From: Planctomycetota bacterium | GTDB lineage: Bacteria; Planctomycetota; UBA1135; GCA-002686595 | Length of the DNA stretch: 64,000 nucleotides | NCBI GenBank assembly: GCA_016779205.1 | Contig: JADHOC010000001.1 | Location: 62,001 to 126,000, forward strand | Direction: 5' to 3' | Part shown: positions 9,848 through 37,504 of the stretch, one piece after another | Layout of the letters: each line of letters starts with the position of its first letter | Position numbering within the stretch: position 1 is the stretch's first letter | Made by a program: the position numbers and the translations under genes | The notes under the pieces: generated by a model | The model's input: the letters and a program-made list of their open reading frames with translations, nothing else | Told to the model about the DNA's origin: nothing | Databases searched by the model: none

Positions 9848-10048
9848 GTTGGGAGGGGAGCGGGGCCGGGCGGGATTCCGGCGAACTTCAGGGGTGGAAC
9901 CACCCGGGCAGGGGCCCGGGTCCGGGGCACACGATAGTCCCCACCGCGGGCCGCTCCTACACCCAGATGGACTCCTCCCGGGAGTTGCCCCGGTAATCGA
10001 GGACAGGGACCGTCCCGCTGCTGAATTCGACCCGCCGCAGGCGCTATC

Positions 10049-16211: not shown

Positions 16212-19200
16212 TCACCTGGGCGCCCGGGCCTCCAGGTGATCGACGAACTCGTTGAAGCCACGGGCCCGCAAGCCGTCGTAGAGGGGGGCGAGTTGCCGCC
16301 GGGGCGCCCCGCGGATCCACCGCCCGCCGGTGAGGCACGTGGTGTCTGAAGGATCGCGGCGACCGGCGAGTCGCCTCGCATCCTCTTGCAGCGCAAGCGC
16401 GTCCACCTCGCCCACATGGATGCACCCCAGGTCCCCTTCGGCGTCCAACAGAAGGCACAGGGGCAGGGGCATCTCCTCGAAGGGAGCGAGCGTCCGCCCG
16501 AGGACCAGGTCGACGATCAGCCGCTCGGCGCTCCCGGCCCGACCCGCGCGATCCTGGAGACCCAGGTCCGCGGAGAGCTGTCGCACCGTGTCCGCCTGCC
16601 GGACCCCATCCAACGCGAGCGCATAGGTGGAGAGGGGCCCATCCTTGAGCCCGCGCAAGGGGCGCTCCGATCCGGGGACCTCGCTCGACCAGAAGAGGAT
16701 GGCCAGGCCACCCTCGCCGCACAGCTCGTCCACACGCCGCGGGGGATCGTCGAAGGACGGGAGGCGCCAGGCGCCGAGGGGAAACTCGGCGTGCATGGGG
16801 ACCGTTGATCGGGGCGGCGGGGCCACCCCTCCGCGGACCACCGGAGCCACGGGGTCCGTCAGCGCAGGGGACGGCGCCCCGTGGGCGTACCGTCGCCGTG
16901 CCTCGCCCGTCCCCCTGACCAGTAGCCAGGAGGACCCCGCCAGCGATGAGCCCTCGCCCGCCTCGAAGTCCTCGGTCACGCCGTCCGGCCATCGAACGGT
17001 GACCTCGGTCAGCTCCACCTCGGAAGGTGCGCCGAGCCCGAAGAACGCCTCCGCCGGCGAGGAGCCAAGGAACCCGTCCCCAGCCAGGATGCGCGCGCTC
17101 CGCACGACGTCGTTGCGCCCGCGGATGCTCACGAGGGCGCCGATTCCGTCGGGGTTCCAGCCGTCCTGACTCAGGCGGAACGCGACCGAGCGTCCGCCTG
17201 GATCGGCGCCCTGGAAGATCCTCAGGATGGGCGCCGTCCGGTTCCGGAAGACCAGATCCTGGCGGCCGTCGTGGTCCAGATCCGCCACCGCCAGGGAGCG
17301 CCCGTCGTCCGGGGCCCCCAGCCCACTCGCGAGGGACACGTCCTCGAACCGGAGGTCGCCCCGGTTCAGGTACGCGAACGTCCGCTCGCGCGCGTTCCAG
17401 TCCTGCCTGCCGAACTGGGAGAGCTGAGAGATCACGGACCAGGCGCCGAGGTATTCATCGAGGCGGGCGGGGTCCGCCTCGGGGCCGAGGGGCGTCGACC
17501 CCACGACGCGGCGCCAGAAGAAGCTCTGCAGGTCCGGCCCCTGGCGCCCGCTGAGGAACCCGTTGGGGACCACGATGTCAGCCAGCCCGTCCCGGTTCCA
17601 GTCGACGAACCGCGAGCCCCAGGCCCATCCACCCGGCGCCGCCCCCGTCATGTCCGTGAGGTCCTCGAAGCCACCGCCCTCCAGACCCCGGAAGATGGAG
17701 TTGCCCCGGGCGTGTCGGATGAACTCGGCCCGCACGTCCGGCGGGACACCGGGGAGGAACCGGGGGTCGCGGGTCACGCGCCCCCCCGCGGCGGAGAACA
17801 TGTTGCTGACCACCAGGTCCGGCAGACCGTCCAGGTCCGCGTCCCCGAGGCTCAGGCCCATGCCCGCGGCCTTGTCCGTCAGCGCACCCGGGCCGGAGGC
17901 CAGAAAGCGGCCCCCCTGCGCGAGGTAGAGGTTGTTCCGGCCGAAGTCATTGGCCACATACAGGTCGAGGTCACCATCGCCATCAAAGTCATCGAAGACC
18001 GAGACCATGCTGAAGCGATCGTTCTCCTCCTCAAGGCCGACCTCGGCGGTGGCCTCCTCGAAGGACCGCGGACGCCCGCCGCCTGAGTCCGCCGCTCGAT
18101 TGCGCCAGAACACGTTGGGCGCGCCGTTGACGGCGTCGTGGTAGGGCGTGGGGGCCGCGGGGCCCTCGCCCTCGGCCTTGAAGTACCGTGTGTCGTAGAG
18201 GTCCAGATCTCCATCCAGGTCCACATCGGCGGCCGAGATCGAGTAGACGCGCGCCTCGCCCGCGCGTGGGAGGATCGTCCTGCTGGTGAAGACCCCCGCT
18301 CCGTCATTCCAGGCGACGACGACGTCCGGGCCGACCCCCATGACCACGTCCCGGGCCCCGTCGCCGTCGAGGTCGACGATCAGGACGCCGCCGCTCTCCT
18401 CGAGCCAGTCGAGGCCGCGGGCGCTGGCCTCCTCCCGGAACGAGCCGCCGTGGTTCATCCAGACCTGATTCGGTTGCCCGGGCGCTCGCGCGACCACCAG
18501 GTCGTCCCAGCCATCCCCATCGAGATCCGCGGCGGCCACGCCGTGCATGGCGGTCAGGATCTCCGACACGGGCTCCAGTGCGTCGGTCCGCCCAGCGGCC
18601 TGCAGGGCCCCGAGGCCGAGGTTGGCCCCGTCCGCGAAGCCCGCCGTGGCGGCGCCCTCCAGCACCGTGTGGGTCACGTCCCGGAAGGGAGGCGTGAGCG
18701 AGACCTCTGTCGCGCGCTCCACCGCAAGGGACGCGATCCGCGCACGCTTTCCGAGGCGCCAGCGCACCTCCATGAACACGTCCCGCTGCTCCCTGCGCTC
18801 GACGGAGGGCCCCTGTGGATCGGTGCCCACGCGAAGGTGCACCCGCGTCCGCCCGATGGGCTCCTGGCCGCCTCCGGCGCCGGGGGCCGTGACCTCGAGC
18901 ACGGTCGCCGCGACCACCGGGGCGCCCCCCTGTCGCGCCACCACCAAGCGACCCTGGAGCCAGCCGAGGAGCTCCGCTCCCTCCAGCGAGACCCTGGAGC
19001 CGTCCTCTCCGGGGACCGAGCCCGCCAGATCCCGCGTCACCACGTTCCGCAGCGCCCCCGGGTCGCCGCCGGTGGCCAGGTGACGGGTGACCTGGAGCAG
19101 GAGACGCTCGGCAGCCTCCGCGAGGAACTCCCCCGGCCACGGCGCACCAGGGAAGCCTGGATCGATCGTGGCGGCGATGGTGTCAAAGTCCGCCCGGCGC

Positions 19201-19391
19201 GCCGGCCCCTGGGGACGGATCACCTGGGTGGACCTGGTGTCAGCTCGGGTCACCTCCGCCTCCGCAGCAGCGGGGCGCTGCCCGGACTCTCCTCCACCGC
19301 CCGCCGTGGGCCCCTCGGCCTCCGGCTCCGCGGAGCAGGCCGCTCCCAGGGTCAGGAGCGCCATGGCGAGCGCGATTCGAGGGGAGAACAT
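16212..19391 (-). CDS. CRTAC1/ASPIC-UnbV FG-GAP protein with redoxin-like tail
   Basis: A 1059-residue exported protein. The ATG at 19391 follows a -10-like TAGACT by 7 bases and begins a signal sequence ending TLGAACSAEPE, possibly a non-canonical lipobox; an upstream ATG at 19430 is less likely. Residues about 240-740 carry FG-GAP/VCBS repeats with calcium-type loops: DLDGDGWDDLV, DLDGDGARDVV, DVDLDGDLDLY, DFDGDGDLDLY, DADLDGLPDLV, DWNRDGLADIV, DLDHDGRQDLV. They form a beta-propeller. An ASPIC/UnbV domain follows (DGIGALVSIRGR, FFGLG, VTVRWPDG). The last 200 residues look redoxin/TlpA-like (LPSFDDPP, LAILFWSS, LCLLLDAEGDLGCI), but the CxxC position reads SSEV. Probably a secreted or outer-surface binding protein; the ligand is unknown. 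Confidence 0.85.
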   Translation of the reverse strand: MFSPRIALAMALLTLGAACSAEPEAEGPTAGGGGESGQRPAAAEAEVTRADTRSTQVIRPQGPARRADFDTIAATIDPGFPGAPWPGEFLAEAAERLLLQVTRHLATGGDPGALRNVVTRDLAGSVPGEDGSRVSLEGAELLGWLQGRLVVARQGGAPVVAATVLEVTAPGAGGGQEPIGRTRVHLRVGTDPQGPSVERREQRDVFMEVRWRLGKRARIASLAVERATEVSLTPPFRDVTHTVLEGAATAGFADGANLGLGALQAAGRTDALEPVSEILTAMHGVAAADLDGDGWDDLVVARAPGQPNQVWMNHGGSFREEASARGLDWLEESGGVLIVDLDGDGARDVVMGVGPDVVVAWNDGAGVFTSRTILPRAGEARVYSISAADVDLDGDLDLYDTRYFKAEGEGPAAPTPYHDAVNGAPNVFWRNRAADSGGGRPRSFEEATAEVGLEEENDRFSMVSVFDDFDGDGDLDLYVANDFGRNNLYLAQGGRFLASGPGALTDKAAGMGLSLGDADLDGLPDLVVSNMFSAAGGRVTRDPRFLPGVPPDVRAEFIRHARGNSIFRGLEGGGFEDLTDMTGAAPGGWAWGSRFVDWNRDGLADIVVPNGFLSGRQGPDLQSFFWRRVVGSTPLGPEADPARLDEYLGAWSVISQLSQFGRQDWNARERTFAYLNRGDLRFEDVSLASGLGAPDDGRSLAVADLDHDGRQDLVFRNRTAPILRIFQGADPGGRSVAFRLSQDGWNPDGIGALVSIRGRNDVVRSARILAGDGFLGSSPAEAFFGLGAPSEVELTEVTVRWPDGVTEDFEAGEGSSLAGSSWLLVRGTGEARRRYAHGAPSPALTDPVAPVVRGGVAPPPRSTVPMHAEFPLGAWRLPSFDDPPRRVDELCGEGGLAILFWSSEVPGSERPLRGLKDGPLSTYALALDGVRQADTVRQLSADLGLQDRAGRAGSAERLIVDLVLGRTLAPFEEMPLPLCLLLDAEGDLGCIHVGEVDALALQEDARRLAGRRDPSDTTCLTGGRWIRGAPRRQLAPLYDGLRARGFNEFVDHLEARAPR

Positions 19392-19398
19392 CCCCCGC

Positions 19399-19404
19399 AG
19401 TCTA
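19399..19404 (-). promoter_or_regulatory. -10-like TAGACT, 7 bases before the CRTAC gene
   Basis: TAGACT on the minus strand fits TANNNT and ends 7 bases before the ATG at 19391. It favours that ATG over the one at 19430, which lies upstream of the motif. Confidence 0.4.
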
Positions 19405-19446
19405 TCGCGCCGCCGCGCCCGTCCCATCACCTGGCCCGGGCCTCTC

Positions 19447-25174: not shown

Positions 25175-26095
25175 TCAGGTCAGCGATCCTCCACCATGGA
25201 TCCAGCCGCCGCTCCCCGGAGTCCACCGGGACCGTTCGGCGCCGGATCGGATCCATAGCCCGTCGCCCTCCATCACGGTTCCGATCACCACCCCAGGGAG
25301 CCCCCTGCTGCTTCCGTCACCCCGCGGAGCCATGCACGCCACGAGCTCGTGGTCCTCGCCGTCGTGGAGGGCGTGAAAGAGCGCGCTCCCGACCGCGAGC
25401 CCCGCCCCCCCCTCCGCGTCCTGATGGACCGGAACCGCCTCGGCGTCCAGCTCGATGGCCACCCCGGAGGCCCGGGCCAACCGGTGGAGGTCCAGCGCCA
25501 GGCCATCGCTCACGTCCATCATCGCCGTTGCCCCTGCCCGGGCCAGGGCGCGCCCCTCGGCGAGGCGAGGGACGATCCGCAGGTGCCGCCCGGACCTCAG
25601 GCTGCCCCCCACCGGCCCGGTCAGCCAGACCTCCTGGCCTGGCTCGGCACGGTCCCGGCCGACGGGACGGCCAGCCCCCTCCAGGAAGCCGAGCGCCGTG
25701 ACCGAGAGGCCCGCAGCCCCCGGCGCCAGGGCCATGTCCCCGGCCACGAGCTCGGCCCCGTGCTCCACGGCGGCCTCCCGCGCCCCGAGGATGGCGGCCT
25801 GAATATCCTCCTCGGTCCACGACTCCGGCGCCCGAACGGCGAGGGTCACGGCCCGCGCCGTGGCCGCCGCCGCGGCGAGGTCCGAGAGGGTGCGGAGGAC
25901 CGCCTTGGCGCCCGCGGATCGTCGGTCCGTGTCGGGGGTGAAGTGCACGCCCTCCACGCACTGATCCACGCAGATCACCGGTCGCTCGCCCTGGGCGTGC
26001 AGGACGGCCGCGTCGTGGCCCCGGGAACCCGCGAGCCCGCGTGGCCACTCGAGCCCCGAGAGCCAACGATGCAAGGCGTCCTCATTCCAGCTCAT
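25175..26095 (-). CDS. thiL: Thiamine-monophosphate kinase
   Basis: ThiL phosphorylates thiamine monophosphate to the active diphosphate with ATP. The 306-residue product belongs to the PurM/ThiL fold family. Recognisable segments are GHDAAVL (usually GDDAAVL, so one of the two N-terminal acidic residues is His here), CVDQCVEGVHF, ALRTLSDLAA-type helix LRTLSDLAAAAATA, VAGDMALAP, MMDVSDGLALDLHRL, GSALFHALHDGEDHEL and the C-terminal VIGTVMEGDG. The Asp-rich motif MMDVSDGL is intact. Thiamine context is supported by a ThiE-like gene upstream, with a small protease-like gene between them. It starts at ATG 26095, 8 bases after the previous stop. Confidence 0.88.
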   Translation of the reverse strand: MSWNEDALHRWLSGLEWPRGLAGSRGHDAAVLHAQGERPVICVDQCVEGVHFTPDTDRRSAGAKAVLRTLSDLAAAAATARAVTLAVRAPESWTEEDIQAAILGAREAAVEHGAELVAGDMALAPGAAGLSVTALGFLEGAGRPVGRDRAEPGQEVWLTGPVGGSLRSGRHLRIVPRLAEGRALARAGATAMMDVSDGLALDLHRLARASGVAIELDAEAVPVHQDAEGGAGLAVGSALFHALHDGEDHELVACMAPRGDGSSRGLPGVVIGTVMEGDGLWIRSGAERSRWTPGSGGWIHGGGSLT

Positions 26096-26103
26096 CGTTC
26101 ACC

Positions 26104-26484
26104 TCAGTAGACCCAAGCCAGGAGGACCCGACCGGCGACCGCGCTGAGGTCGAGCCATCCCACTGACCCCGAATCGAATGCGTCGCAGCGGGCGCAGTCC
26201 GCGCTGCACCAGAGCCTCCCGTCGTCCTCCCGCGCGGCCTCCACCAACACGAGGTGCAGCGTCCCATCCGCGGCACGCACCAGAACAGCGTCCCCTGGCT
26301 GGACGTCACCGGGGTGACGATCGATCACCAGCCGGTCCCCGGCCTCGTACCTCGTCACCGGGCTGCATCCGTCCGGCGGCAGGGTGACCAGGTCGAAGCG
26401 CAGGCCGAGATAGGCCGCGCCGGCGAGGGCGATGAGCAGGGTCCACCGTCGGAACCGCCTCAGCAAGCGCCGCTGGAGCGTCAC
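26104..26484 (-). CDS. Small S26-peptidase-like membrane protein, possibly inactive
   Basis: A 126-residue protein starting at GTG 26484, overlapping the thiE-like stop (GTGA). A basic head and one membrane helix (RRWTLLIALAGAAYLGL, about 11-27) precede a small beta domain: CSPVTRYEAGDRLVID, DVQPGDAVLVRAADGTLHLV, then a C-terminal DSGSVGWLDLSAVAGRVLLAW. This is the layout of a signal-peptidase I (S26) or S24 domain: Ser-containing loop, GD-VLV strand, a DS..G..... segment and a final GRV. The catalytic Lys that should sit in the central strand is not visible (the segment reads GTLHLVLVEA). The Cys pair CSADCARC is unusual. I infer the S26-like fold from pattern only. Confidence 0.5.
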   Translation of the reverse strand: MTLQRRLLRRFRRWTLLIALAGAAYLGLRFDLVTLPPDGCSPVTRYEAGDRLVIDRHPGDVQPGDAVLVRAADGTLHLVLVEAAREDDGRLWCSADCARCDAFDSGSVGWLDLSAVAGRVLLAWVY

Positions 26485-27200
26485 GGTCGAGCCTCCGCCG
26501 CAGCGGGGAAGACCGGTTGACCGGCCGCCACCAGCGCCTCGACCCGCCCGCGCACCCCGCATCCGGTGGGCCTCCCGCCTCTCACCTCGTCGGACCCCCA
26601 TACCGCCCCAATCGCCGCGGCCCCGGCGGCGCCCGTTCCGACCAGCCCGGCCATGACCTCCGGACCGACGCCGCCGAGCGCCCAGACGGGGAGGGGGCAC
26701 GACTGGCAGAAGGCCCGGAGCCCCTCGGGGCCAAGGGCCTCTCCGCCCGCATGCTTGGAGTTCGGGGGGAACACCGGGGCGTGGAGGGCGAAGTCCGCCC
26801 CCGCCCAGCGCGCCGCCCCGTCGCCCTCATGGGTGGACGCCCCGATCGCCACCCCGTCGCCCACCACCTCGCGAGCCGCGGCGGCGCCGAGGGAGTGGCC
26901 CGCCAGCTGGACCCCGTCCGCCTCCACCGCCGCCGCGAGGTGCACGCGGTCATGGACGCCGAGCCACGCCCACGGAAACTCCAGGCCCAGGAGCGCCCGC
27001 AGCTCCGTGGCGAGGGCGAGGAAGGCGCCGTCCTCGAGGGCCGGCTCCCGCAACAACAGACCGCGCGCGCCGCCCGCCAGCGCCTCCCGGGCGAGGGCAG
27101 GGAATCGTGCGAGCGCCTCGGCCTCCGCGCTCCCCGCAGGACCGCGGGAGAGGCGGCCCGGAGAGAGCACCAGGAGGCTGGGGGGCAGCCGCCGCCCCAT
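26481..27200 (-). CDS. ThiE/TenI-family thiamine phosphate synthase-like protein
   Basis: A 239-residue TIM-barrel protein. Family segments: ALAGGARGLLLREPAL (usually G...vqlReK), VHDRVHLAAAVEADGVQLAG (usually nDr...a...aDGvHlg), AIGASTHEGD (iG.StH), DFALHAPVFPPNSKHAG (dY...gpvfpT.tK) and VWALGGVGPEVM (ialGGi). ThiE couples the thiazole and pyrimidine halves of thiamine, while TenI is an aminotransferase-like isomerase of the same fold. The KKxD and DD residues that mark true ThiE are altered (RE at the first site), so TenI is a real alternative. thiL two genes downstream supports a thiamine role. ATG 27200 shares one base with the stop of the helicase-partner gene (TGATG). Confidence 0.75.
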   Translation of the reverse strand: MGRRLPPSLLVLSPGRLSRGPAGSAEAEALARFPALAREALAGGARGLLLREPALEDGAFLALATELRALLGLEFPWAWLGVHDRVHLAAAVEADGVQLAGHSLGAAAAREVVGDGVAIGASTHEGDGAARWAGADFALHAPVFPPNSKHAGGEALGPEGLRAFCQSCPLPVWALGGVGPEVMAGLVGTGAAGAAAIGAVWGSDEVRGGRPTGCGVRGRVEALVAAGQPVFPAAAEARP

Positions 27201-29308
27201 CAGTCCTCCAGCTCGATCAGGTAACCGAGGTCGCGGAAGAGCGTCCGATACCGCGCCAGGCTGGTCTTCGCCTTGAGTTGCACGGCGTTGCCGTCCAGCT
27301 TGCCCTTGATGAACGGGCGCACCCCCGCGTCCCTTGCGAAGCGGGCCAGGATCTCGGCGTCCTGGGCCCGGATCACGTGGTCCGGACCGAGAAGCAGCAG
27401 GCCTGACTTGGTTGCCCAGTCGCGGATCGACTGCAGCACGTTCCGGGGAACCGGGGTCCGTGCGTTCATGGTCAGCACCTCGCGCATCTTGTTGAGGGTC
27501 ATGCCCTCCACGAGCCCGCGGTGCACGCTCTTCTCGCTGATCCGAAACTGCCGCAGGGCGCCGTCCTTGGTCCGATCCGTGAAGCGGTCCAGGTCATGGG
27601 TCAGCACGGCGTCATCACCCTCGGCGAACAGGACCACCTCGAAGTCGGGGGTCACCACGAGACGCCCGATCCCGAACGTCTCCTCCTCCGGGGTGTCGAT
27701 ACCCAGGACCCGCGCCCCGGTCCGGGTGAGGCGCATGGCGACCGGGCGCCCCTTGTCGTCGTACCCGAGGTCCACCAGACCGAGCAGGTAGAGGCGCTTG
27801 CGGACCCAGCCCACCAGGTTCCAGGCGAGACGCTGGAGATCCTCCGTGGCCCCGGCGCCGGCTGCCCCCCGAGCGGCGATCATCTCATCGACCTCGAGGG
27901 CATCGAGCTGCGACAGGTAGGCGTTGCGAGCGAGGAACGGCAGATACATCACGTCGTACCAGACGCCGACCTCGAGGCGCTTCATGAGCGTCGCGAGGAT
28001 GCGGCGCATGGCCGGGTGGTGGACCGACTCGTGGGCCTCATCCAGCTCGAAGGTGACGTGCTCGAAGAGCCCGGCGAGCTTGTCATCCAGGTCCTGGGAC
28101 TCCCAGTCCCGCCCGGCGGCGGTGAGCTTGAACGTGCGCTCGCCGGTCACCTCGATGAGGCCCGCGGCACGGGAGAAGCGGAAGATGAACTGGAGCACCT
28201 CGGCCCGCTCCAGCTCACGGCCAGGATTCGGGATCAGCTCCGTGAGGATCCGCTTCTCCGTGGTCTTGAAGATCTCGCCCTTCACGGTGAAGCGCACCGC
28301 ATGGTCGATGATGTACGCGAGGAAGCGAGAGATGTTCGCCATCAGGTCCACACCCAGCGCCGCCTCGTCATGGGGGGCGTCCGGGTCCGAGGGGACCGCC
28401 ACGCGCTTGAACCAGGCCAGCGTGACCTCGTTGAAGACGATCAGCGTGTCATCCTCGTGCTGGATGCCGTAGCGCTCGAGCTCGAGCCTCGCGGCCGTGC
28501 CGACGAGGGACTCCTCGAGGATCTTGCCCCAGCGCCGCTGGTTCCAGTGGGGCAACTCCGTCTCCATGCGCTCGAAGAACCGCCGCGGCAGCAACCCCCC
28601 GAACTCGAGGACAGTCTTGCCCACCAGGTCCCGGAGCCCCTCGGGCAGCCGCTCCACCCGAGCCACGGAGGCCGGCTCGTTGGCGTACATCTTGAACATC
28701 TCCCGGAGCCGAGAGGGCGACATGGGGCGCTCGACCTCCGGCCCGGCGTAGCGCTCATCCAGGTGCCCCTTCAGGGTGATGGTCACCGCGTTCGCACGCG
28801 CCTTCTCGGCGATCTCCTGGAGCAGGAGTGCGTCCGCGAGTTCCCCTGGCAGGGCGAACTGCATGTCGTCCCCGTCTCCCTCCCGGAAGACCATCGCCGC
28901 GCGCTCCAGACCGCCGAGCACGTCCACCTCGGACGCCTGGCCCAGCATGGACAGGACGGTCTTGCGGTCGACCCGGTGCCGAGGCGCGAGCAGCAGCGCC
29001 TCGAGGACGGCCTGCTGGTTCTCGTCCAGGGTCTGCTTGCGGTCGACGGCCCGCTCCGGATCGCACATCCAGCCCTCCAGCGCGCTGCGAACCTCGGCCA
29101 CCTTCGTCGGGAGCTCGGCCGCGCCGGAGTCGCACCAGAAGCGGAACGGCTCGGCCAGCTGCGCCTTCTTGAGCCGCTTGAGAGCCGCGGCGATCGAGAG
29201 GTCGCCGCGGGAGGCCTTGCGGGGGGCGACCTTGGGGGACGCCTTGCCGCTGCGCACGGTGCGCTTGCGGACGCCGGATGAATTGGGTTCAGGAGATCGC
29301 GGTGTCAC
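27200..29308 (-). CDS. XPB-helicase partner with Helicase_C_3 domain
   Basis: A 702-residue protein starting at GTG 29308, overlapping the XPB stop (GTGA). No Walker motifs are present. The N terminus is basic (KRTVRSGKASPKVAPRKASR), a likely nucleic-acid-binding tail. Residues about 30-540 are mainly helical with several winged-helix-like stretches (LDENQQAVLEALLLAPRHRV, RELERAEVLQFIFRFSRAAG). Residues about 549-640 (LVVTPDFEVVLFAEGD, DRFTDRTKDGALRQFRIS, GLVEGMTLNKMREVL) match the Helicase_C_3/XPB-Ssl2-like N-terminal family found beside bacterial XPB helicases. From memory, mycobacterial XPB has a neighbour of this type. It is probably a co-factor or damage-recognition subunit of the helicase. 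Confidence 0.8.
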   Translation of the reverse strand: MTPRSPEPNSSGVRKRTVRSGKASPKVAPRKASRGDLSIAAALKRLKKAQLAEPFRFWCDSGAAELPTKVAEVRSALEGWMCDPERAVDRKQTLDENQQAVLEALLLAPRHRVDRKTVLSMLGQASEVDVLGGLERAAMVFREGDGDDMQFALPGELADALLLQEIAEKARANAVTITLKGHLDERYAGPEVERPMSPSRLREMFKMYANEPASVARVERLPEGLRDLVGKTVLEFGGLLPRRFFERMETELPHWNQRRWGKILEESLVGTAARLELERYGIQHEDDTLIVFNEVTLAWFKRVAVPSDPDAPHDEAALGVDLMANISRFLAYIIDHAVRFTVKGEIFKTTEKRILTELIPNPGRELERAEVLQFIFRFSRAAGLIEVTGERTFKLTAAGRDWESQDLDDKLAGLFEHVTFELDEAHESVHHPAMRRILATLMKRLEVGVWYDVMYLPFLARNAYLSQLDALEVDEMIAARGAAGAGATEDLQRLAWNLVGWVRKRLYLLGLVDLGYDDKGRPVAMRLTRTGARVLGIDTPEEETFGIGRLVVTPDFEVVLFAEGDDAVLTHDLDRFTDRTKDGALRQFRISEKSVHRGLVEGMTLNKMREVLTMNARTPVPRNVLQSIRDWATKSGLLLLGPDHVIRAQDAEILARFARDAGVRPFIKGKLDGNAVQLKAKTSLARYRTLFRDLGYLIELED

Positions 29309-31179
29309 TCTGCGTCGCCCTCGGGAAGGCTGGCTCGGGTCGTTGACCCACCAGGCGCGGCGCCAGAGACCGCTCCTGCGGGGTCCTCGCTTTCAGCGTG
29401 GACGATTTCGTACGAGTAGCCCTGCTCCGTGAGGAACAGCTGCCGCTTCTCGGAGAACTCCTGGTCTCGGGAGCCGAGGGTCACCACGGAGTAGAAGGTC
29501 GCCCCGCTCCCGTCCGACTTCGGCCGGAGCACGCGCCCGAGGCGCTGGGCCTCCTCTTGCCGTGAGCCGAACGTGCCTGAGACCTGCACGGCCACGGAGG
29601 CGTCCGGCAGGTCGACCGCGAAGTTCCCCACCTTCGACAGGACGAGGAGCTCGATCTCCCCCTCCCGGAAGGCGCTGTAGAGCCGCTCGCGCTCCGCGTT
29701 GGCCGTGCGCCCGGTCAGGAGCGGCGCGTCGAGCTCCTTGGCGATGGCGCGGAGCTGGTCGAGGTACTGCCCGATCACGAGGATGCGCTCCCCTGCGTGT
29801 CGCTCGACCAGGTCCTTGAGGATCGGGAGCTTGGCCCTGTTCTCGGACGCGAGCCGGAACTGCTGGCGCGAAGGGGCCGAGGCATAGGCGCGTCGATCCT
29901 CGTCCGAGAAGGGCACCCGCACCTCCACACAGCGGGCCTCTGCGATGAACCCCTGGCCCTCCAGGACTTTCCAGGGCACGTCGTAGCGCTTGGGCCCGAT
30001 CAGGCAGAAGACCTCCTCCTCCTTGTTGTCCTCACGCACCAGGGTCGCGGTCAGGCCCAGTCGACGCCGCGCCTGCAGCTCCGCCGTGACGCGGAAGATG
30101 GGCGCGGGCAGCAGGTGCACCTCGTCGTAGACCACCAGGCCCCAGTTCTGGGAACGGAAGACCTCGAAGTGTTCGAAGTCGCCATCCTTCGAACGGCGCC
30201 AGGTCATCATCTGGTAGGTGCTGATCGTCACGGGGCGGAGGTCCTTGGTCTCCCCCGTGTACTCGCCCACGTCCTCGGGCCGCAGCTCGGTCTTGTCGAG
30301 GAGCTCCTCGCGCCACTGGCGCACCGCCACCGTGTTGGTGGTGAGCACGAGGGTCTTGGCTCCCACGAGGCTCATCACCGCCATGCCCGTGACCGTCTTC
30401 CCCGCACCGCAGGGAAGCACCACCACGCCGCTGCCCCCCATGACCGTCCCACCGGCATGGAAGGCCTCCGCCGCGCCCCGCTGGTAGTCCCGCAGGGCGA
30501 ACGGCTTGCCGCCCAGGGTCACCTCCTTGAGCTGGATCTCGAGGGGATCCCCGTCCAGGTAGCCCCCGCGATCGTCCACCGGGTAGCCGATCCGGATCAG
30601 GCGTTGCTTCAGGTCTCCCCGACCGGTGCCGGTGACAAAGGCCCGGCGGCCCTCCGGGCCATCCTCGAGGTCACAAAGGGCCGCCACCGCCTTGTGCTCC
30701 AGCACCTCATCCAGCAAGCCCTCCTGTCCCCCGACCAGCTCGAAGTCCGCGGGCCCATCGGACGCCCGCTCGATGCGCAGCAGGCCATATCGCTCGATCC
30801 AGCCGCGCACCTCATCCAGGACCCCAGCGGGTACGGGGACGCACGCGAAGCGGTGGAGGGCCTCCTCGATCTCGCCCGCCGTCACGCCCACGGCTGCCGC
30901 GTTCCACACCGACACCGGCGTCACCCGGTAGGTGTGCAGGTAGTCCGGGCTCTTCTCCAGCTCCGCGAAGACGCTGAGCGCGTCGCGGGCCGCTGTGAAG
31001 AGCGGGTGCTCCTCCGTCAGGGGGTTCCCATCCTCGTCGCGCTCGGGGCGCCCGTCCGCACCGACCCGAGCCCGCACCGTATGGAGCATCAGGGTCCGGT
31101 CGCTCTGGACGATCAGCGGATTGGTGGGCAGCGGCGCCGGAAGCGCCGCCGCGGTGCCGGCCTTCGTCTCGTCGGTCAT
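29305..31179 (-). CDS. XPB/Rad25-type DNA helicase
   Basis: A 624-residue superfamily 2 helicase starting at ATG 31179, overlapping the uvrA stop (ATGA). The N-terminal 200 residues are the XPB-type regulatory head (LIVQSDRTLMLHTV, SPDYLHTYRVTPVSVWNAAA). Helicase motifs follow: Q-like FALRDYQRGAAEAF, Walker A LPCGAGKT (about 255-262), TLVLTTNTVAVRQW, Walker B as DEVH (about 350), GLTATLVREDNKEEEV carrying the XPB-specific RED motif (about 380), and motif VI QRLGRVLRP (about 540). XPB unwinds DNA 3' to 5'; in eukaryotes it opens damage bubbles in TFIIH. Placement between a UvrA and a Helicase_C_3 partner points to nucleotide-excision or transcription-coupled repair. Confidence 0.92.
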   Translation of the reverse strand: MTDETKAGTAAALPAPLPTNPLIVQSDRTLMLHTVRARVGADGRPERDEDGNPLTEEHPLFTAARDALSVFAELEKSPDYLHTYRVTPVSVWNAAAVGVTAGEIEEALHRFACVPVPAGVLDEVRGWIERYGLLRIERASDGPADFELVGGQEGLLDEVLEHKAVAALCDLEDGPEGRRAFVTGTGRGDLKQRLIRIGYPVDDRGGYLDGDPLEIQLKEVTLGGKPFALRDYQRGAAEAFHAGGTVMGGSGVVVLPCGAGKTVTGMAVMSLVGAKTLVLTTNTVAVRQWREELLDKTELRPEDVGEYTGETKDLRPVTISTYQMMTWRRSKDGDFEHFEVFRSQNWGLVVYDEVHLLPAPIFRVTAELQARRRLGLTATLVREDNKEEEVFCLIGPKRYDVPWKVLEGQGFIAEARCVEVRVPFSDEDRRAYASAPSRQQFRLASENRAKLPILKDLVERHAGERILVIGQYLDQLRAIAKELDAPLLTGRTANAERERLYSAFREGEIELLVLSKVGNFAVDLPDASVAVQVSGTFGSRQEEAQRLGRVLRPKSDGSGATFYSVVTLGSRDQEFSEKRQLFLTEQGYSYEIVHAESEDPAGAVSGAAPGGSTTRASLPEGDAE

Positions 31180-34100
31180 CTCGACTGCCTCCGCTCTTTG
31201 GCGGCAGCGTCGCCGCGTCCTCGGGCGGCCTGGGCCTTGGCCTTGGTGGCCGCAACCTTGCCCTTCGCGTTCCTGGCCGGCGTCTTCTTGGCGCCGCTCG
31301 GCGACTTGGCCGCTCCCCGCCGCCCGGAGGCGTCGCGCCCCGACCGGGTGCCGCGAGCCGCGCCGCGGCCCCCCCCCGGCTTCCCCGACTGCAGCCAGCG
31401 GCCCGTGATCGAGCCGGCGTCCCCCGCGAGCTCCGCCGGTGTGCCCGTGGCGATGATCTGGCCCCCGGCCTCGCCCCCCTCGGGCCCGAGCTCCACGAGC
31501 CGGTCGCACACCTCCAGGAGCTCGGTGTGATGCTCGATGACCACCACCGCGTTCCCCCGACGGACGAGCCTCCCGAGGCAGCGCGCCAGGTGCTCGACGT
31601 CCGTGGCCGCGAGCCCGGTGCTCGGCTCGTCCAGCACCAGGACGCTGCGCTGGGCAACCCCCGAGGGGGAGTCGGCCCGCCACAGCTCCGAGGCCAGCTT
31701 GATCCGCTGCGCCTCGCCACCGGAGAGCGTGGTGGACGACTGCCCCAGGGACATGTAACCGAGCCCCACGTCGTGCAAGGTCGAGAGGATCCGCCGCAGC
31801 GCGGGGGCGGCCGCGAAGAACTCGAGGGCCTCGTCGACGCTCATGGCGAGGACGTCGGCGATGGAGCGGCCCCGGTATCGAACCTCGAGCACCTCCGGCT
31901 GATACCTCGACCCATCGCACTCCTCGCAGGTGAGCCACAGGTCGGAGAGGAACTGCATCTCCACCAGGGTCGCGCCGCGCCCGTCGCAGCCCGCGCAGCG
32001 TCCCTTGGTGGAGTTGAAGGAGAAGTTGGAGGGGGTGAAGCCCTTCATCCGAGCCTCCGGCGTCTTCGCGAAGAGCTCCCTGAGGTGGGGCATGAGCTCC
32101 ACGTAGGTCGCCGGGACGCTGTGCGGCGTCCTGCCGATGGGCGAGGCGTCCACCACGGCGAGACGCGTGCCCTCGGGCACCGAGGCGCTCTTCCACCTGC
32201 CGCCGGCCGACTCCCCCCGGATCGCGGGGACCAGGGCGTCGAGGACCAGGGTGCTCTTGCCGCTCCCCGATGGGCCACAGACCCCGAGCAGCTCCCCGAA
32301 GCGCACCTCCAGGTCCACGCCCCGCAGGTTGTGCTCCCGGGCGCCCTTGAGCTGAACGGACGCGTCGTCGACGCCGAAGGCGGCCACGAGCGCCTCGCGC
32401 CGCGCAGACTCCATCTCGGCGTCCTCCCCGGCAGCGTCGTCCGAGAGGATGGAGGCCAGGTCCACCTCACCTCTCATGTATCGCCCGGTGCCGGAGGTGG
32501 GGTGCTCCCGGACCTCGGCGGGCGTCCCCGCGACCACGACCTCGCCCCCGAGCACCCCGGCGCCGGGGCCCATGTCGACGATGTGATCCGCGCGGCCCAT
32601 GAGCTCCGCGTCGTGCTCCACCACGAGCACCGTGTTCCCAGCGTCCCGCAGGTCCTCCAGGGCCCCCGCCAGCTGGTCGATGTCCCTGGGGTGGAGGCCC
32701 ACCGTGGGCTCATCCAGGACATAGCACACCCCGACGAGCTCCGACCCGAGGCTCGCGGAGAGCCGAACGCGGCGCGCCTCCCCACCGGAGAGCGTGGCCG
32801 TCGATCGGTCGAGCGTGAGGTAGCCGAGCCCGACTCGCTCCAGGAGGGCGAGGCGCGAGCGGAGCTCCGCGAGCACCTGCTCCATGGCGGCCGCCGCCGA
32901 CTTGCGCAGCTTCAGCCCCCCGAGCCACCCCAGCGCCGCCTCGACGGTCATCCCCAGGACCTGGGGGATGCGCTTGCGACCCACGAGGACGCTCCGGAAC
33001 TCCGGGGCGAGCCGCTCCCCGGCGCAAGCCGGGCAGGTCTGCCGGGTCATCACGCGCTCCAGGATGCCCGCCCACTCCGGGTCATCGGTCTTCGCGTGCC
33101 AGGCGTCGATGTGACCACAGAGGCCGTTCCACTCCGAGGTGTACTCCTGGTCGAAGTCGAAGTTCCTCATCTGCTTGGAGACGTGCACCTCGTAGCTCGC
33201 GCGGGCCCCCACGCCCCTCAACAGCAGCGCCTGGTGCTTCGCGCTCAGCTTCTCGAGGGGCTTGTCGAGGTTCACCCGATGGGACCGCGCGACCGTGCGC
33301 AGCAGCGTCTCGTAGTACCCCTTGCCCTTCACCAGGTAACGGCCGAGCTTCCCCCCGATGGCGCCGTCCGCGAGGGGGCGCGTCGGGTCCGTGATCAGCT
33401 TCTCCGGGTCCGCCCGGAAGATGGAGCCCAGCCCGTCGCAGCTCGGGCAGGCACCCACGTGGGTGTTGAAGGAGAAGTGCCGCGGCTCGAGCTTGGCTCC
33501 GAGCTGGAAGCCACAGGTGGTGCACGCCCCGTGGGTGCTGTACTCGATCCGGTCCCCGCCCTTCACGAGCACCGAGACCCGGCCATGGGAAGCGGCGGCC
33601 GCCTGCTCCACCGCGTCGGCGATCCGTGCCCGGGAGGCCGTGGAGAAGCTCACCCGGTCCACCACCAGGTCCACCGCCTCCGCCTCATCGAACGGGAGGT
33701 CCTCCGCGTCCAGACGGTGCTCCTCGCCGTCGATCATGACCCGCACGAAGCCCGCGGCGGTCCAACTGGGGACGAGGGCGCGCAGCCGATCGCCGGTGGA
33801 CTCCGCGCTCGTGCCCATCCTCACGGAGTGACCGAGAACCGGGGCCAGGATCCAGCCCTTCGGCTTCCCCGGCAGCTCCGCCGTGGCCTTCAGGATCTCC
33901 CGGGTCACCTTGCCCGGGTCCGCCGGACGCAGCGGCTCCCCGTGGTCGGGGCAGCGCGCCTCACCGGCCCGCGCGAAGAGTACGCGGAGCTGGTCGTGGA
34001 TCTCGGTGGTCGTCGCCACCGTCGACCGGGGGTGACCGCGGACGGTGGAGGCCTCGACGGCCACCGACGGGCCGAGCCCCTCGATTCGATCCACAGGCGG

Positions 34101-37100
34101 CTTGTCCTTGGTCCCGAGGAACTGCCGCGCGTAGGTGGAGAGCGACTCCACGAACCGCCTGCGCCCCTCCGTGTAGATGGTGTCCAGCGCCAGGGACGAC
34201 TTCCCGGAGCCCGAAGGGCCCGTGATGACGGTCAGGGAGCCCCGCGGGATGGAGACGTCCACGCCCTTGAGGTTGTGGGTCCGAGCGCCCTCCACCACGA
34301 GTTCGGTGGGCTGGCGCACGCCCCGCGAGCGCGGCAGCGGGCGGGTCTTGAGGCGGCGCCGATCCGTGAGCTCCCGCAGGGCGGCCCCCGTCGGGGTGTC
34401 CTGCTCCGCCAGCTCCTCGGGGCTCCCGTGCCCCAGCACTCGACCGCCGCCCTCCCCTCCCTCGGGGCCCAGGTCGATGAGGTGGTCCGCCGCCTGGATC
34501 AGCTCGAGGTTGTGCTCGATGACGAGCACGGTGTGCCCCTTGTCCACCAGCCGCTGCAGCGCCCCCACCAGGCGGCCCACGTCCTCCATGTGCAGCCCGG
34601 TCGTGGGCTCATCGAGGAGGAAGAGCGTGTGGCCGCTGGGGCGCTTCGAGAGGTGGGTCACCAGCTTGATGCGCTGGGCCTCCCCGCCCGAGAGGGTGGG
34701 CGAGGGCTGGCCGAGCGTGAGGTACCCGAGCCCCACGTCCATCATCAGCCCGAGGGGGCGCCGCAGCAGCGGGTGATCCTCGAAGAGCTCGTGGGCCTCC
34801 TCGACGGTCATGGCGAGCACGTCCGCGATGGAGCGCTCCCGGTAGCGCACGTCCAGGGTCTCCTCCTGGAAGCGGCGCCCTCCGCACTCCTCGCAGGGCA
34901 CGGTGACGGGGCTCAAGAACTGAAGCTCCATCACCTTCACCCCGGCGCCGAGGCACTCCTCGCAGCGGCCACCGGCCACGTTGAAGCTGAAGCGTGACTT
35001 GGTGTAGCCCCGCATCTTGGCCTCGGCGAGGCTCGCGAAGAGCTCTCGAATCGGCCCCAGGATCTTGGTGTAGGTGGCGGGATTCGATCGCGGCGTGCGC
35101 CCGATGGGCGACGCCGTGATGGAGATCATCTCGTCCACGTGCTCGAGCCCCTTGATCGCGTCGTGGGCCCCGGGGTCGGGCGTCTCTCGCTCCAGGTGAC
35201 GCAGCACCGCTCGCTTGAGGGTGCGCTCCACGAGGGTGGACTTGCCCGAGCCGGACACCCCCGTCACCGCCGTGAGCGTCCCGAGGGGGATCCTCACGTC
35301 GACGCCCTTGAGATTGAACGCCCTGGCCCCCTTCACCTCCAGGAAGTCACCGGTGCCGGACCGCCGCTCTTCGGGCGCCGGGATCTCGATCTCCCCGCGG
35401 AGGAGGCGACCGGTCGGCGTGTCGACGCCAGACCGAGCGACCTCCGAGGGCGGCCCTGAGGCGACGATCTCCCCGCCGCGGCTCCCTGCGGATGGCCCGA
35501 CGTCGATGAGCCAGTCGGCGCTCCGCAGGGTGGACTCGTCGTGCTCCACGATCACCACGCTGTTGCCCGCGTCCCTCAGGTTCGCGAGGGCGCCGAGCAG
35601 CCGATCGTGGTCCCGGGCGTGCAGGCCGATGGACGGCTCATCCAGCACGTAGAGGACGCCCTGGAGCCCGGCCCCCAGCTGGGCCGCGAGCCGGATCCGC
35701 TGCGCCTCGCCACCCGACAGGGTGTCCGCACCGCGGTCCAGGGTCAGGTAGCCCAGTCCCACGTCCACCAGGAAGCGAGCGCGGCGCTCGATCTCGAGGA
35801 GGAGGTCCCGGGCGATGCGGCCCTGACGCTTGCTGAGCTCTGCTCCCTCGAGCCGCTCCACCAGCTCGGAGACGGGCCCCGAGGTGAGCTCGGCGAACCT
35901 CAGCCCGCCAAAGCGCACGTGGCGGGCGAACAGGTTGATCCGCGAGCCGCTGCACTCGGGACAGACCTGCTCCGAGAGGAACCGCTCCACCATCTTCTTG
36001 CGAGAGCCCTTCGCGAGGGCTCGACGAAGGTTGCCGAGCACGCCGTGGAAGACCCGGTTCCAGCTCCCCTGACCGCGGGAGCGCTGACCGTTCCACTTGA
36101 AGGCGTCCCGGTAGCGCCTCTCCCCCGTCCCCTCGAGAACAAGCCTCCGCGCCTCCCGGCTCATCTCCGCCCAGGGGGTGTCCAGGTCGAAGCCCGCCGA
36201 CTCGCCCACCCGGCCCAGGAACTCGAAGTCGACGTTGGGGAACAGCAGCCCGTTGCCCGCCGCCTTGGTCACCGCCAGGGCACCCTCGCGGATGGTGAGG
36301 GCAGGGTCCTTCACCACGGCGGCCTCCGAGGGCGCCTTCAGGACGCCGAGCCCGTCACAGGCTCCGCACGCACCGTGGGGGGAGTTGAACGAGAACAGCC
36401 GGGGCTCGAGCTCGGGAAGCTCGCGCCCCGTCTCCGGACAGACGCGCTGGGTGGACCAGGTCCGCTCGTCCGTCTCCCCGATGGCCACGACCTCGCCCCC
36501 GCCCATGTCCAGCGCCTGCTCCACGGCGTCCCGCAGGCGCCCGGGCTCATTGGCGTCCGGCTTGAGCCGGTCGACGATCACCTCGACCGTGTGGCGCTTG
36601 TACCGCTCGAGCTCCGGGGCCTCTTCGAGGCGGACGATCTCGCCATCCACCCGGGCCCGCACGAAGCCCCTGCGCTGGAGGTCCTGGAAGAGCGCGCGGA
36701 ATGACCCCTTGCGGTCCTTGATCAGCGGCGCGGCCACGACGAGCTTCCGTCCGGCATGCGCGGCGAGCAACTCCTGAACCACCGCCTCAGGCGTGCGCGA
36801 CTCCACGGGCAGGTCGCACCACGGGCTGTGGGCCACGCCCGCCCGGGCATACAGGACGCGCAGGTGGTCCACCACCTCCGTCAGGGTGCCGACCGTGGAG
36901 CGGTTGCCACGCGCGATGCTCTTCTGGTCCACCGCGATCGCGGGGGAGAGGCCCTCGATCGAGTCGATGTCCGGCTTCTGCAGGCCGCCCAGGAACTGGC
37001 GCGCGTAGGCGGACAGGGTCTCCAGGAAGCGTCGCTGCCCCTCACGGAACAGGGTGTCGAAGGCGAGGGATGACTTGCCTGACCCGGACACCCCGGTGAC

Positions 37101-37226
37101 CGCGACGAGCGCGCCCCTCGGCAGCGTCACGTCCACCGAGCGGAGGTTGTTCTGCCGGGCTCCGCGGATCACGATCTCGCCAGCGTCTGACCCTGCGGTC
37201 GAGGTTGCTTTGGTGCGAGGAGACAT
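31176..37226 (-). CDS. uvrA: Double-length UvrA (tandem fusion, four ATPase domains)
   Basis: UvrA finds bulky DNA lesions and loads UvrB. Normal UvrA has about 950 residues; this one has 2016 and reads as two UvrA units, about 1-965 and 975-2016. Each unit has two ABC ATPase domains. Walker A loops are near 45 (GVSGSGKSS), 655 (GVSGSGKST), 1003 (GPSGSGKSS) and 1650 (GPSGSGKST). Signature motifs are near 500 (LSGGEAQRIRLA), 843 (LSGGEAQRIKLV), 1476 (LSGGEARRVRLS) and 1834 (LSGGEAQRIKLA). C-terminal zinc modules (GRCEEC...CEEC, GRCAGC...CEEC) keep all four Cys. The first zinc module is complete in unit two (CTTC, CPSC) but has CPET in unit one, losing one Cys. A Lys/Arg/Ala-rich tail ends the protein. 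It is the first gene of the repair operon. Confidence 0.95.
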   Translation of the reverse strand: MSPRTKATSTAGSDAGEIVIRGARQNNLRSVDVTLPRGALVAVTGVSGSGKSSLAFDTLFREGQRRFLETLSAYARQFLGGLQKPDIDSIEGLSPAIAVDQKSIARGNRSTVGTLTEVVDHLRVLYARAGVAHSPWCDLPVESRTPEAVVQELLAAHAGRKLVVAAPLIKDRKGSFRALFQDLQRRGFVRARVDGEIVRLEEAPELERYKRHTVEVIVDRLKPDANEPGRLRDAVEQALDMGGGEVVAIGETDERTWSTQRVCPETGRELPELEPRLFSFNSPHGACGACDGLGVLKAPSEAAVVKDPALTIREGALAVTKAAGNGLLFPNVDFEFLGRVGESAGFDLDTPWAEMSREARRLVLEGTGERRYRDAFKWNGQRSRGQGSWNRVFHGVLGNLRRALAKGSRKKMVERFLSEQVCPECSGSRINLFARHVRFGGLRFAELTSGPVSELVERLEGAELSKRQGRIARDLLLEIERRARFLVDVGLGYLTLDRGADTLSGGEAQRIRLAAQLGAGLQGVLYVLDEPSIGLHARDHDRLLGALANLRDAGNSVVIVEHDESTLRSADWLIDVGPSAGSRGGEIVASGPPSEVARSGVDTPTGRLLRGEIEIPAPEERRSGTGDFLEVKGARAFNLKGVDVRIPLGTLTAVTGVSGSGKSTLVERTLKRAVLRHLERETPDPGAHDAIKGLEHVDEMISITASPIGRTPRSNPATYTKILGPIRELFASLAEAKMRGYTKSRFSFNVAGGRCEECLGAGVKVMELQFLSPVTVPCEECGGRRFQEETLDVRYRERSIADVLAMTVEEAHELFEDHPLLRRPLGLMMDVGLGYLTLGQPSPTLSGGEAQRIKLVTHLSKRPSGHTLFLLDEPTTGLHMEDVGRLVGALQRLVDKGHTVLVIEHNLELIQAADHLIDLGPEGGEGGGRVLGHGSPEELAEQDTPTGAALRELTDRRRLKTRPLPRSRGVRQPTELVVEGARTHNLKGVDVSIPRGSLTVITGPSGSGKSSLALDTIYTEGRRRFVESLSTYARQFLGTKDKPPVDRIEGLGPSVAVEASTVRGHPRSTVATTTEIHDQLRVLFARAGEARCPDHGEPLRPADPGKVTREILKATAELPGKPKGWILAPVLGHSVRMGTSAESTGDRLRALVPSWTAAGFVRVMIDGEEHRLDAEDLPFDEAEAVDLVVDRVSFSTASRARIADAVEQAAAASHGRVSVLVKGGDRIEYSTHGACTTCGFQLGAKLEPRHFSFNTHVGACPSCDGLGSIFRADPEKLITDPTRPLADGAIGGKLGRYLVKGKGYYETLLRTVARSHRVNLDKPLEKLSAKHQALLLRGVGARASYEVHVSKQMRNFDFDQEYTSEWNGLCGHIDAWHAKTDDPEWAGILERVMTRQTCPACAGERLAPEFRSVLVGRKRIPQVLGMTVEAALGWLGGLKLRKSAAAAMEQVLAELRSRLALLERVGLGYLTLDRSTATLSGGEARRVRLSASLGSELVGVCYVLDEPTVGLHPRDIDQLAGALEDLRDAGNTVLVVEHDAELMGRADHIVDMGPGAGVLGGEVVVAGTPAEVREHPTSGTGRYMRGEVDLASILSDDAAGEDAEMESARREALVAAFGVDDASVQLKGAREHNLRGVDLEVRFGELLGVCGPSGSGKSTLVLDALVPAIRGESAGGRWKSASVPEGTRLAVVDASPIGRTPHSVPATYVELMPHLRELFAKTPEARMKGFTPSNFSFNSTKGRCAGCDGRGATLVEMQFLSDLWLTCEECDGSRYQPEVLEVRYRGRSIADVLAMSVDEALEFFAAAPALRRILSTLHDVGLGYMSLGQSSTTLSGGEAQRIKLASELWRADSPSGVAQRSVLVLDEPSTGLAATDVEHLARCLGRLVRRGNAVVVIEHHTELLEVCDRLVELGPEGGEAGGQIIATGTPAELAGDAGSITGRWLQSGKPGGGRGAARGTRSGRDASGRRGAAKSPSGAKKTPARNAKGKVAATKAKAQAARGRGDAAAKERRQSR

Positions 37227-37410
37227 GGCGGAGAGGCGAGATCTTTGGCGGCGGCAGCCGGAAGCGGCGGCGGTCCGCGACGGGCCGCGGGACCGCCTCC
37301 CGAGACTTGTCCCGGCGGCTTACAAGCCGATCAGGATACCAGCCGCGGCCGAGGGCACCAGCCGCGGGTCTCAGGCGAAATGCCGCAGCCCGGCCCAGGA
37401 GGCCCCAGGG

Positions 37411-37456
37411 AACAAAACGGACGGGTCCCGGCCGCCCGAAGGGAGCCAGGACCCGT
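37411..37456 (-). terminator. Intrinsic terminator of the peroxiredoxin gene
   Basis: On the minus strand the arms at 37456-37445 and 37432-37421 form a 12-bp stem with one mismatch (acgggtcctggc against gccgggacccgt). The stem is followed directly by a T-rich tract, ccgttttgtt (37420-37411). It lies 48 bases after the peroxiredoxin stop. The rest of the 278-base gap up to uvrA holds no gene I can support. Confidence 0.7.
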
Positions 37457-37504
37457 CCTGTGGGGTGGCGCGGCCGCTAAAGGGCCGAGCACGCTCCGGT
37501 CCGA

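Follow-up and report, generated by a model that had tools for sequence, protein, structure and literature searches.

Gene content and layout of the locus

The window discussed here is a 64-kb stretch of DNA from a Planctomycetota bacterium (G000:C9:62001-126000, from a 4.3-Mb draft genome that is 90.5% complete), and its main point of interest is a run of three genes that encode a tandem, double-length UvrA, an XPB helicase, and a partner protein that appears to be like the p52/Tfb2 subunit of transcription factor IIH (TFIIH). The original prediction, made from the DNA letters, had read these genes as a single minus-strand unit with 4-base start/stop overlaps, and both the coordinates and the two overlaps are confirmed (Table 1). 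An XPB frame with a longer GTG start overlaps uvrA; the ATG frame is taken as the gene.

Table 1. Features of the uvrA-XPB region in window coordinates
Feature	Position	Strand	Remarks
Tandem (double) uvrA, 2016 aa	31176-37226	minus	copy 1 at about residues 18-940, copy 2 at about 976-1934
XPB helicase, 624 aa, ATG start	29305-31179	minus	NF045503 profile match
p52/Tfb2-like partner, 702 aa, GTG start	27200-29308	minus	apparent likeness, from Helicase_C_3 domain and AlphaFold2 model
ATGA overlap, uvrA stop/XPB start	31176-31179	minus	read directly from the sequence
GTGA overlap, XPB stop/partner start	29305-29308	minus	read directly from the sequence
Thiamine-phosphate-synthase-like gene	26481-27200	minus	start inside the partner stop codon (TGATG)
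Intergenic region 5' of uvrA	37227-37504	minus	terminator-like stem after ahpC (37438-37418), then probable promoter region

The short overlaps recur among relatives. With the start codon nearest the upstream stop chosen in each case, a rule that favours short gaps, 44 of 63 loci with a tandem uvrA upstream of XPB have a uvrA/XPB junction of exactly -4, and 59 have one of no more than 60 nt (17 of the 63 were chosen mostly for their UvrA, and 16 of these are rows of the tree described below). By the same rule the XPB/partner junction is exactly -4 in 46 of 61 linked loci and no more than 60 nt in 54. Such recurrence indicates that the junctions in the window are more than chance.

The transcription unit probably begins at uvrA, since a terminator-like stem, identified by consensus scan only, follows ahpC some 190 bp upstream. 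A consensus scan of the region 5' of uvrA found no sigma-70-type promoter. Control by the SOS response was considered and rejected, as four LexA-type patterns found no box in 14 upstream regions from the family of the window genome (f1). A TATCCT -10-like element lies about 110 nt upstream of uvrA (37338-37333, minus strand), and inspection by eye suggests -10-like elements of the form TAnnnT ahead of uvrA in several f1 genomes.

At the other end, the unit had been placed at 27200-37226. All three genes stand, but the run continues past 27200 into the thiamine-phosphate-synthase-like gene, whose overlap with the partner stop codon means that the transcript may run on. This gene is probably a passenger; homologues on the same strand were seen only in loci of families f1, f2, f4, f5, and f21.

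The tandem UvrA and other excision repair genes

The fused nature of the predicted UvrA was borne out in full. The protein contains two complete copies of TIGR00630 (1171.6 and 960.7 bits, against a cut-off of 729.8), each half aligning end to end with the solved UvrA 2r6f (972 and 805 bits), and together they carry four ATPase sites: four Walker A, four LSGGE, and four Walker B motifs, with the Walker A lysines and the Walker B acid pairs intact. UvrA_inter, the UvrB-interaction domain, is found in both halves. Residues R176 and R206 of Geobacillus UvrA, the UvrB-docking arginines, have arginine counterparts at R190 and R220 in the first half and at R1162 and R1191 in the second. The first CxxC of the insert region lacks one cysteine in half 1 (CPET) and is present in half 2, and the C-terminal tail is rich in lysine and arginine.

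The XPB-linked gene is the only one in the window genome whose UvrA product was found to have the UvrB-interaction domain. A second UvrA-like gene on contig 27 (G000:C27:5245-9933, locus L279) is also tandem, with an open frame of 1666 aa. UvrA_inter does not figure in the top 25 among its 36 Pfam matches, and positions 116-263 of the UvrA model go unmatched. Without a recognised UvrB-interaction domain, this protein resembles a doubled version of UvrA2. There is no XPB or p52-like gene in the 15-kb stretch around it.

UvrB and UvrC are encoded by single genes elsewhere in the window genome, where Mfd is encoded too. Among 61 genomes of the same order UvrB was found in 60, UvrC in 61, and Mfd in 60, while 53 show UvrD_C at an E-value no higher than 1e-60. 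On these counts the idea that XPB replaces one of these proteins was set aside.

XPB and its p52-like partner

The second gene had been called an XPB-type helicase with RED and DEVH motifs, and this identification is secure. The protein scores 797 bits against NF045503 (cut-off 610) and has a Helicase_C_3-type N-terminal domain at residues 50-168. Both motifs are present and are invariant over 16 XPB sequences. A profile of those 16 proteins aligns with human XPB (8ebt_A) at E 2.1e-124, covering the N-terminal domain as well as the two helicase domains. Among the named records listed, the most similar XPBs, at 67-69% identity, come from uncultured Planctomycetota.

The third protein has a single Pfam domain at strict threshold, Helicase_C_3 at residues 550-665. 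Its AlphaFold2 model (predicted local distance difference test score, pLDDT, 89.2; predicted template-modelling score, pTM, 0.82) suggests a helical, winged-helix-like N-terminal part, then the clutch-like Helicase_C_3 domain, and finally a strand-strand-helix-strand element at 667-700. Pfam joins the XPB N-terminal domain and the partner domain in one family, and its curators may have seen the link. A profile of 30 partner homologues, run against all PDB sequences, matched XPB (3.4e-8), human p52 (7.4e-6), and yeast Tfb2 (9.4e-4), in each case at the clutch-type domain; a second profile gave XPB at 6.2e-7 and p52 at 1.6e-6.

Comparison of structures reaches further along the chain. When the model was compared by Foldseek with 350,542 PDB chains, the 18 best matches were all chains of TFIIH-containing entries (best E 3.6e-10), with alignments spanning 329-562 columns. 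Chains of the size of XPB appeared from 5e-6, and the first match outside a TFIIH-containing entry, a chain of RNA polymerase III, came at 6.0e-3. The N-terminal half of p52 alone (6tru_A) was matched at E 1.5e-2 with a probability of 0.99. Sequence searches confirmed that 8ebt_D is human p52 and that 7o4i_2, 6trs_A, and a chain of 7zs9 are Tfb2; the remaining top chains are presumably p52, to judge from their length (289-452).

Several observations weigh against calling this protein a p52. Its sequence likeness to p52 is mainly in the clutch domain, a domain that XPB has as well and for which XPB scores equally well or better, and a search for sequence proof of p52 homology beyond the clutch, with a partner profile from which that domain had been removed, found no p52. 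The Pfam Tfb2 family (PF03849) matched weakly in 12 of the 30 homologues, the best at 6.9e-5 or 22.4 bits against a cut-off of 34.5, and did not match the window protein itself, though in two homologues (from loci L199 and L257) the match extends into the region before the clutch. Moreover, the 18 best structural matches have low TM-scores (0.16-0.22 by query, 0.25-0.36 by target), and superposition of whole chains is poor. The likeness of the N-terminal part to p52 thus appears, from the model, to rest on local structure in order along the chain. Taken together, the protein appears to be p52/Tfb2-like, and since none of its homologues reaches the PF03849 cut-off it is called here p52-like rather than filed as a member of the p52/Tfb2 family.

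Since XPB and the partner both have a Helicase_C_3 domain, as do XPB and p52 in TFIIH, the two proteins would be expected to form an XPB-p52 heterodimer. A p8/Tfb5 counterpart gave no match, but the model matched in no control genome either, so its absence is not shown.

Conservation of the gene order in the Planctomycetota

The original prediction had named loss of the order in relatives as the finding that would count against it. In a draw of 294 genomes taken evenly over the phylum, XPB (NF045503) was found in 137. Up to 20 kb was examined around 141 XPB genes from 135 genomes, the window included, with about 9 kb on each side of XPB and less at contig ends; the omission of small XPB fragments removed two of the 137 genomes (G072 and G124). 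UvrA and the partner were sought with profiles built from the window, and linkage was scored when a UvrA match of at least 80 bits lay upstream on the same strand with less than 1.1 kb between profile matches. Nine of the 141 loci, with no UvrA and less than 1.2 kb upstream, were left out of the linkage counts, and loci L259-L281, chosen mostly for UvrA content, were kept out of the phylum fraction.

By these rules 46 of 132 testable loci, from 13 of 40 families, have a same-strand tandem uvrA immediately upstream of XPB, so the order is indeed conserved in relatives. Four further loci have a UvrA within 8 kb that is not adjacent, in one case on the other strand, and linkage also occurs in family f5, among loci of the order outside the phylum draw. 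Every XPB-linked UvrA that is complete in its contig is tandem. Family f1, to which the window belongs, is linked in all 10 of its loci in the phylum draw, or 14 of 14 when four loci chosen for UvrA are added. The partner is more constant still, adjoining XPB in 132 of 137 testable loci, downstream in 128 and upstream in four.

On a quick XPB tree of 172 rows, uvrA linkage changes only five times. Most linked rows (59 of 61) fall in one clade of 81, with a Shimodaira-Hasegawa-like approximate likelihood-ratio (SH-aLRT) support of 97, which also holds 20 unlinked rows; the tree program warned that two long branches, L153 and L144, meet outside this clade. So few changes indicate that the order arose rarely and was then inherited. 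The uvrA-XPB link is a real and old trait.

The two parts can nonetheless exist separately. Within the order, 20 regions were taken for their tandem UvrA, and XPB follows in 17 of them (partly so in L264); it does not in L259 and L261, and L267 meets a contig end. Tandem UvrA also occurs in planctomycetes in which no XPB was found, family f29 for example. Since XPB without uvrA and tandem UvrA without XPB both exist, neither part needs the other.

Eroded forms of the XPB-linked UvrA

In three families (f3, f4, and f21) the XPB-linked UvrA has lost part of its ATPase machinery. Family f3 belongs to the same order as the window. All but one of its 16 genomes have a single UvrA-like gene at E up to 1e-40 (2e-69 to 4e-59); G328 has none at that threshold, and a canonical UvrA was seen in none of the 16, all of which encode UvrB and UvrC. 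The eroded uvrA lies directly upstream of XPB in all seven f3 genomes with an examined XPB locus, one copy being cut by a contig end, and across the three families an eroded UvrA stands beside XPB in 10 of 10 loci, one of which (L280) was chosen for its UvrA.

The f3 proteins measure about 1330-1380 aa. Their first half retains Walker A and Walker B and no longer has the LSGGE signature. In the second half Walker A is gone (K to R at the first site; P, G, or E at the second), along with most other ATP residues. The arginines at the docking positions are largely in place: six of six at both positions in half 1, and five and four of six in half 2. In the two f4 proteins the last Walker A and both Walker B sites of half 2 are changed, and in one of them a half-1 docking arginine is a lysine. 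The single f21 protein has all four Walker A lysines and changed Walker B sites in half 2. A scan of two f3 proteins found no UvrA_DNA-bind domain, and for the f4 and f21 forms this domain was missing from the top 25 families; UvrA_inter gave weak matches in the f3 pair (7.8e-4 and 0.13) and clear ones in the f4 and f21 forms.

Genomes of f4 (G109 and G297) and f21 (G016) encode a canonical UvrA elsewhere, which would fit a separate role for the XPB-linked copy. In one f4 locus (L281, from G109) two single-length UvrA genes lie about 2.3 kb apart on the same strand, possibly a split tandem. Erosion of this kind is what would be expected of a UvrA whose role, bound up with XPB and UvrB, persists beyond the decay of its own ATPase, though these sequences offer a pattern and not a proof.

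XPB and p52-like genes outside the planctomycetes

A scan of named records gave at least 589 confirmed XPB matches, the best 80 of which were examined. This set favours XPBs like that of the window and holds no Actinomycetota, so it is a sample and not a census; the counts in this section, and those for other phyla given later, all refer to it. A UvrA was present in the XPB locus of 10 of its 20 Planctomycetota. In the cultured planctomycete Gemmata sp. IIL30 (L219), XPB is followed by a p52-like gene, and the locus has no UvrA. For the 60 loci from other bacterial phyla and archaea, an iterated profile placed a p52-like gene adjacent to XPB on the same strand in 23 and elsewhere in the locus in five, with none found in 32. 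Such neighbours occur in Spirochaetota (4 of 10), Bacillota (4 of 9), Chloroflexota (3 of 5), Myxococcota (3 of 3), and Methanobacteriota (2 of 3), and in none of nine Fibrobacterota loci. The original prediction had described the pairing of XPB with a Helicase_C_3 partner as known from actinobacteria; within the sample, and in the planctomycetes, the pairing is indeed widespread.

Three Chloroflexota loci (L200, L242, and L253) have two p52-like genes in a row downstream of XPB. All three of the Thorarchaeota metagenome-assembled genomes (L199, L205, and L207) carry a p52-like gene 1.7-3.6 kb downstream of their bacterial-type XPB. For the L199 homologue, the 18 best matches of the model (pLDDT 73.9) are again TFIIH chains of p52 type (best E 8.5e-10), with TM-scores of up to 0.54 by target. 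On the XPB tree the Thorarchaeota proteins group with Chloroflexota and Bacillota on a weakly supported branch. These genes could bear on the origin of TFIIH, or they could reflect transfer from bacteria.

Relation to known systems

The combination had been put forward as an undescribed system, with the link to a fused UvrA as its new element. A uvrA-XPB operon was indeed not found in the literature searched, which covered few subscription journals, nor was a bacterial p52. The fused UvrA itself, on the other hand, is published: one article states a UvrA fusion for Planctomycetes, the same arrangement of two complete copies in one chain, in a passage that does not mention XPB (PMC8567305). Eroded, XPB-linked forms like those of f3, f4, and f21 were not found described in the literature searched. 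Against NF001885, a double-length NCBIfam model of 1809 aa that represents chlamydial UvrA, the window protein scores 1241 bits, below the cut-off of 3054.

Bacterial XPB proteins are known from Mycobacterium and Kineococcus, and the window protein belongs to the same family, well above the NF045503 cut-off, but here a p52-like gene lies beside XPB. The Mycobacterium enzyme is a 3'-5' helicase, and the 2012 study in question argued that bacterial XPB works alone, no p52 being known in bacteria (PMC3353954). In eukaryotic TFIIH the N-terminal domain of XPB is homologous to the p52 clutch, with which it forms a pseudo-symmetric dimer (PMC6422496). The bacterial pair shares with the XPB-p52(-p8) arm a Helicase_C_3 domain in both proteins and a partner model whose best matches are p52-type chains; it differs in being found beside UvrA. 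A 2026 review states that archaeal XPB, lacking a TFIIH-like assembly, pairs with Bax1 (PMC13024598). That pair is likewise a prokaryotic XPB with a dedicated partner, but Bax1 is a nuclease and was not found here, and the window XPB has the p52-pairing N-terminal domain. Finally, UvrB, UvrC, and Mfd of the usual UvrABC pathway are all encoded in the window genome, the difference being that UvrA is here a covalent dimer whose gene forms one unit with those of XPB and a p52-like protein.

Other features of the window

No RNA families or tRNAs were found in the 64-kb window. An FG-GAP/UnbV protein of 1072 aa (16212-19430) lies beside a HEAT-repeat protein and an outer-membrane efflux protein. 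A minus-strand frame of 1368 aa (52847-56953) has a coding-like composition and matches no Pfam family at E up to 0.001. There are two AIR-synthase-type genes (8798-10717 and 25175-26095), and in the first of these about 340 N-terminal residues match no Pfam family.

Proposed function and alternative explanations

The reading we favour is a three-gene operon for nucleotide excision repair (NER) that joins a bacterial damage sensor to a TFIIH-like motor, a proposal about evenly balanced between right and wrong. The sequences establish the gene order, the overlaps, the domain content, and their conservation. We infer that XPB binds the p52-like protein, through the two homologous Helicase_C_3 domains as in TFIIH, and that the resulting pair can bind UvrA. 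The tandem UvrA would then serve as a ready-made covalent dimer that finds the lesion, and XPB-p52 as an ATP-driven duplex translocase brought to the lesion by UvrA or together with it. By opening or under-winding the DNA, the translocase would allow UvrB, docked on either half of UvrA, to be loaded and to verify the lesion, after which the separately encoded UvrC would cut, and UvrC and a UvrD-type helicase would finish repair. In the three families with eroded proteins, UvrA would be mainly a UvrB-docking scaffold, with XPB-p52 supplying more of the DNA work.

A more ambitious version holds that in part of the Planctomycetota the operon makes a hybrid machine, a covalent UvrA dimer physically docked to XPB-p52, which would be equivalent to one arm of TFIIH; that XPB-p52 took over DNA engagement in f3 and left the eroded UvrA as a UvrB-loading scaffold; and that XPB-p52 is an ancient prokaryotic module from which TFIIH drew. 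This version is tentative, and we would sooner bet against it than on it.

A number of findings count against a joint repair function. Adjacent uvrA is missing from 82 of the 132 testable XPB loci in the phylum, and UvrA occurs in none of the 60 sampled loci from other phyla and archaea, seven of which have less than 1.2 kb upstream; XPB-p52 thus does not need UvrA as a neighbour. Natural fusions, sought as proof of interaction, were not found between UvrA and XPB, XPB and p52, or UvrA and p52 among the frames fetched. With Mfd, UvrB, UvrC, and usually a UvrD-type helicase present, there is no visible gap in NER for XPB to fill. In most f1, f3, and f44 loci, homologues of inositol monophosphatase (IMPase), thiL, and tsaE lie on the same strand, and IMPase is near XPB without an adjacent uvrA in 8 of 11 f60 and 4 of 6 f32 loci, so slow rearrangement by itself may account for part of the order.

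The most serious competing explanation is that the genes share nothing more than their expression. The three would belong to a slowly rearranging housekeeping or stress cluster, and XPB-p52 would act in recombination, replication restart, or R-loop removal without touching UvrA. In its favour are the IMPase, thiL, and tsaE homologues retained near the operon in f1, f3, f44, and other families, and the fact that XPB-p52 occurs without uvrA in most families drawn from the phylum and in every sampled locus of other phyla. The repair core is kept, however, in f12, f40, f72, and f8, whose loci, within the limits of their size, showed neither a thiL nor a tsaE homologue (IMPase is present in one of six f12 loci). 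The -4 coupling in 44 of 63 linked loci and the eroded UvrA that stays beside XPB also speak against shared expression alone, which we consider possible but doubtful.

The original prediction had allowed for a mixed excision-repair or transcription-coupled pathway. The uvrA-XPB link proved real and old, but no positive sign of transcription coupling emerged. In such a scheme XPB-p52 would act on stalled RNA polymerase or on the transcription bubble and recruit the co-made UvrA, beside Mfd, and the transcription role of XPB-p52 in TFIIH offers an analogy. The retention of Mfd in 60 of 61 genomes speaks against replacement, though not against a complement to Mfd. No transcription gene lies directly beside XPB (a gene for an extracytoplasmic function, or ECF, sigma factor lies beyond tsaE), and a transcription-coupled role seems improbable.

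More improbable by far is a helicase-nuclease pair of the archaeal kind, with a nuclease as yet unseen. The precedent is that archaeal XPB is reported to work with Bax1 (PMC13024598, PMC7672443). Pfam searches recognised no nuclease domain in the partner. DUF790 (PF05626), the family of Bax1, was not found in the window draft genome (90.5% complete), whereas 4 of 14 control genomes were positive, and this pairing is accordingly disfavoured. An anti-phage or mobile-element role, raised by matches of XPB to the PADLOC PbeA models (best 4.5e-24), is scarcely credible, as those matches cover only the generic helicase part, the partner has no PADLOC match, and linkage changes little over the XPB tree, unlike in defence islands.

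Implications

Read as an excision-repair system, the operon is a new variant of NER, undescribed within the literature searched, and the sharing of one operon suggests that bacterial and eukaryote-type excision-repair parts work together. Of its components, the p52-like partner is a stronger surprise than the UvrA link and easier to test. The role of bacterial XPB is still described as elusive in the 2026 review (PMC13024598); a p52-like gene next to bacterial XPB, coupled in this phylum to UvrA, makes that role directly testable.

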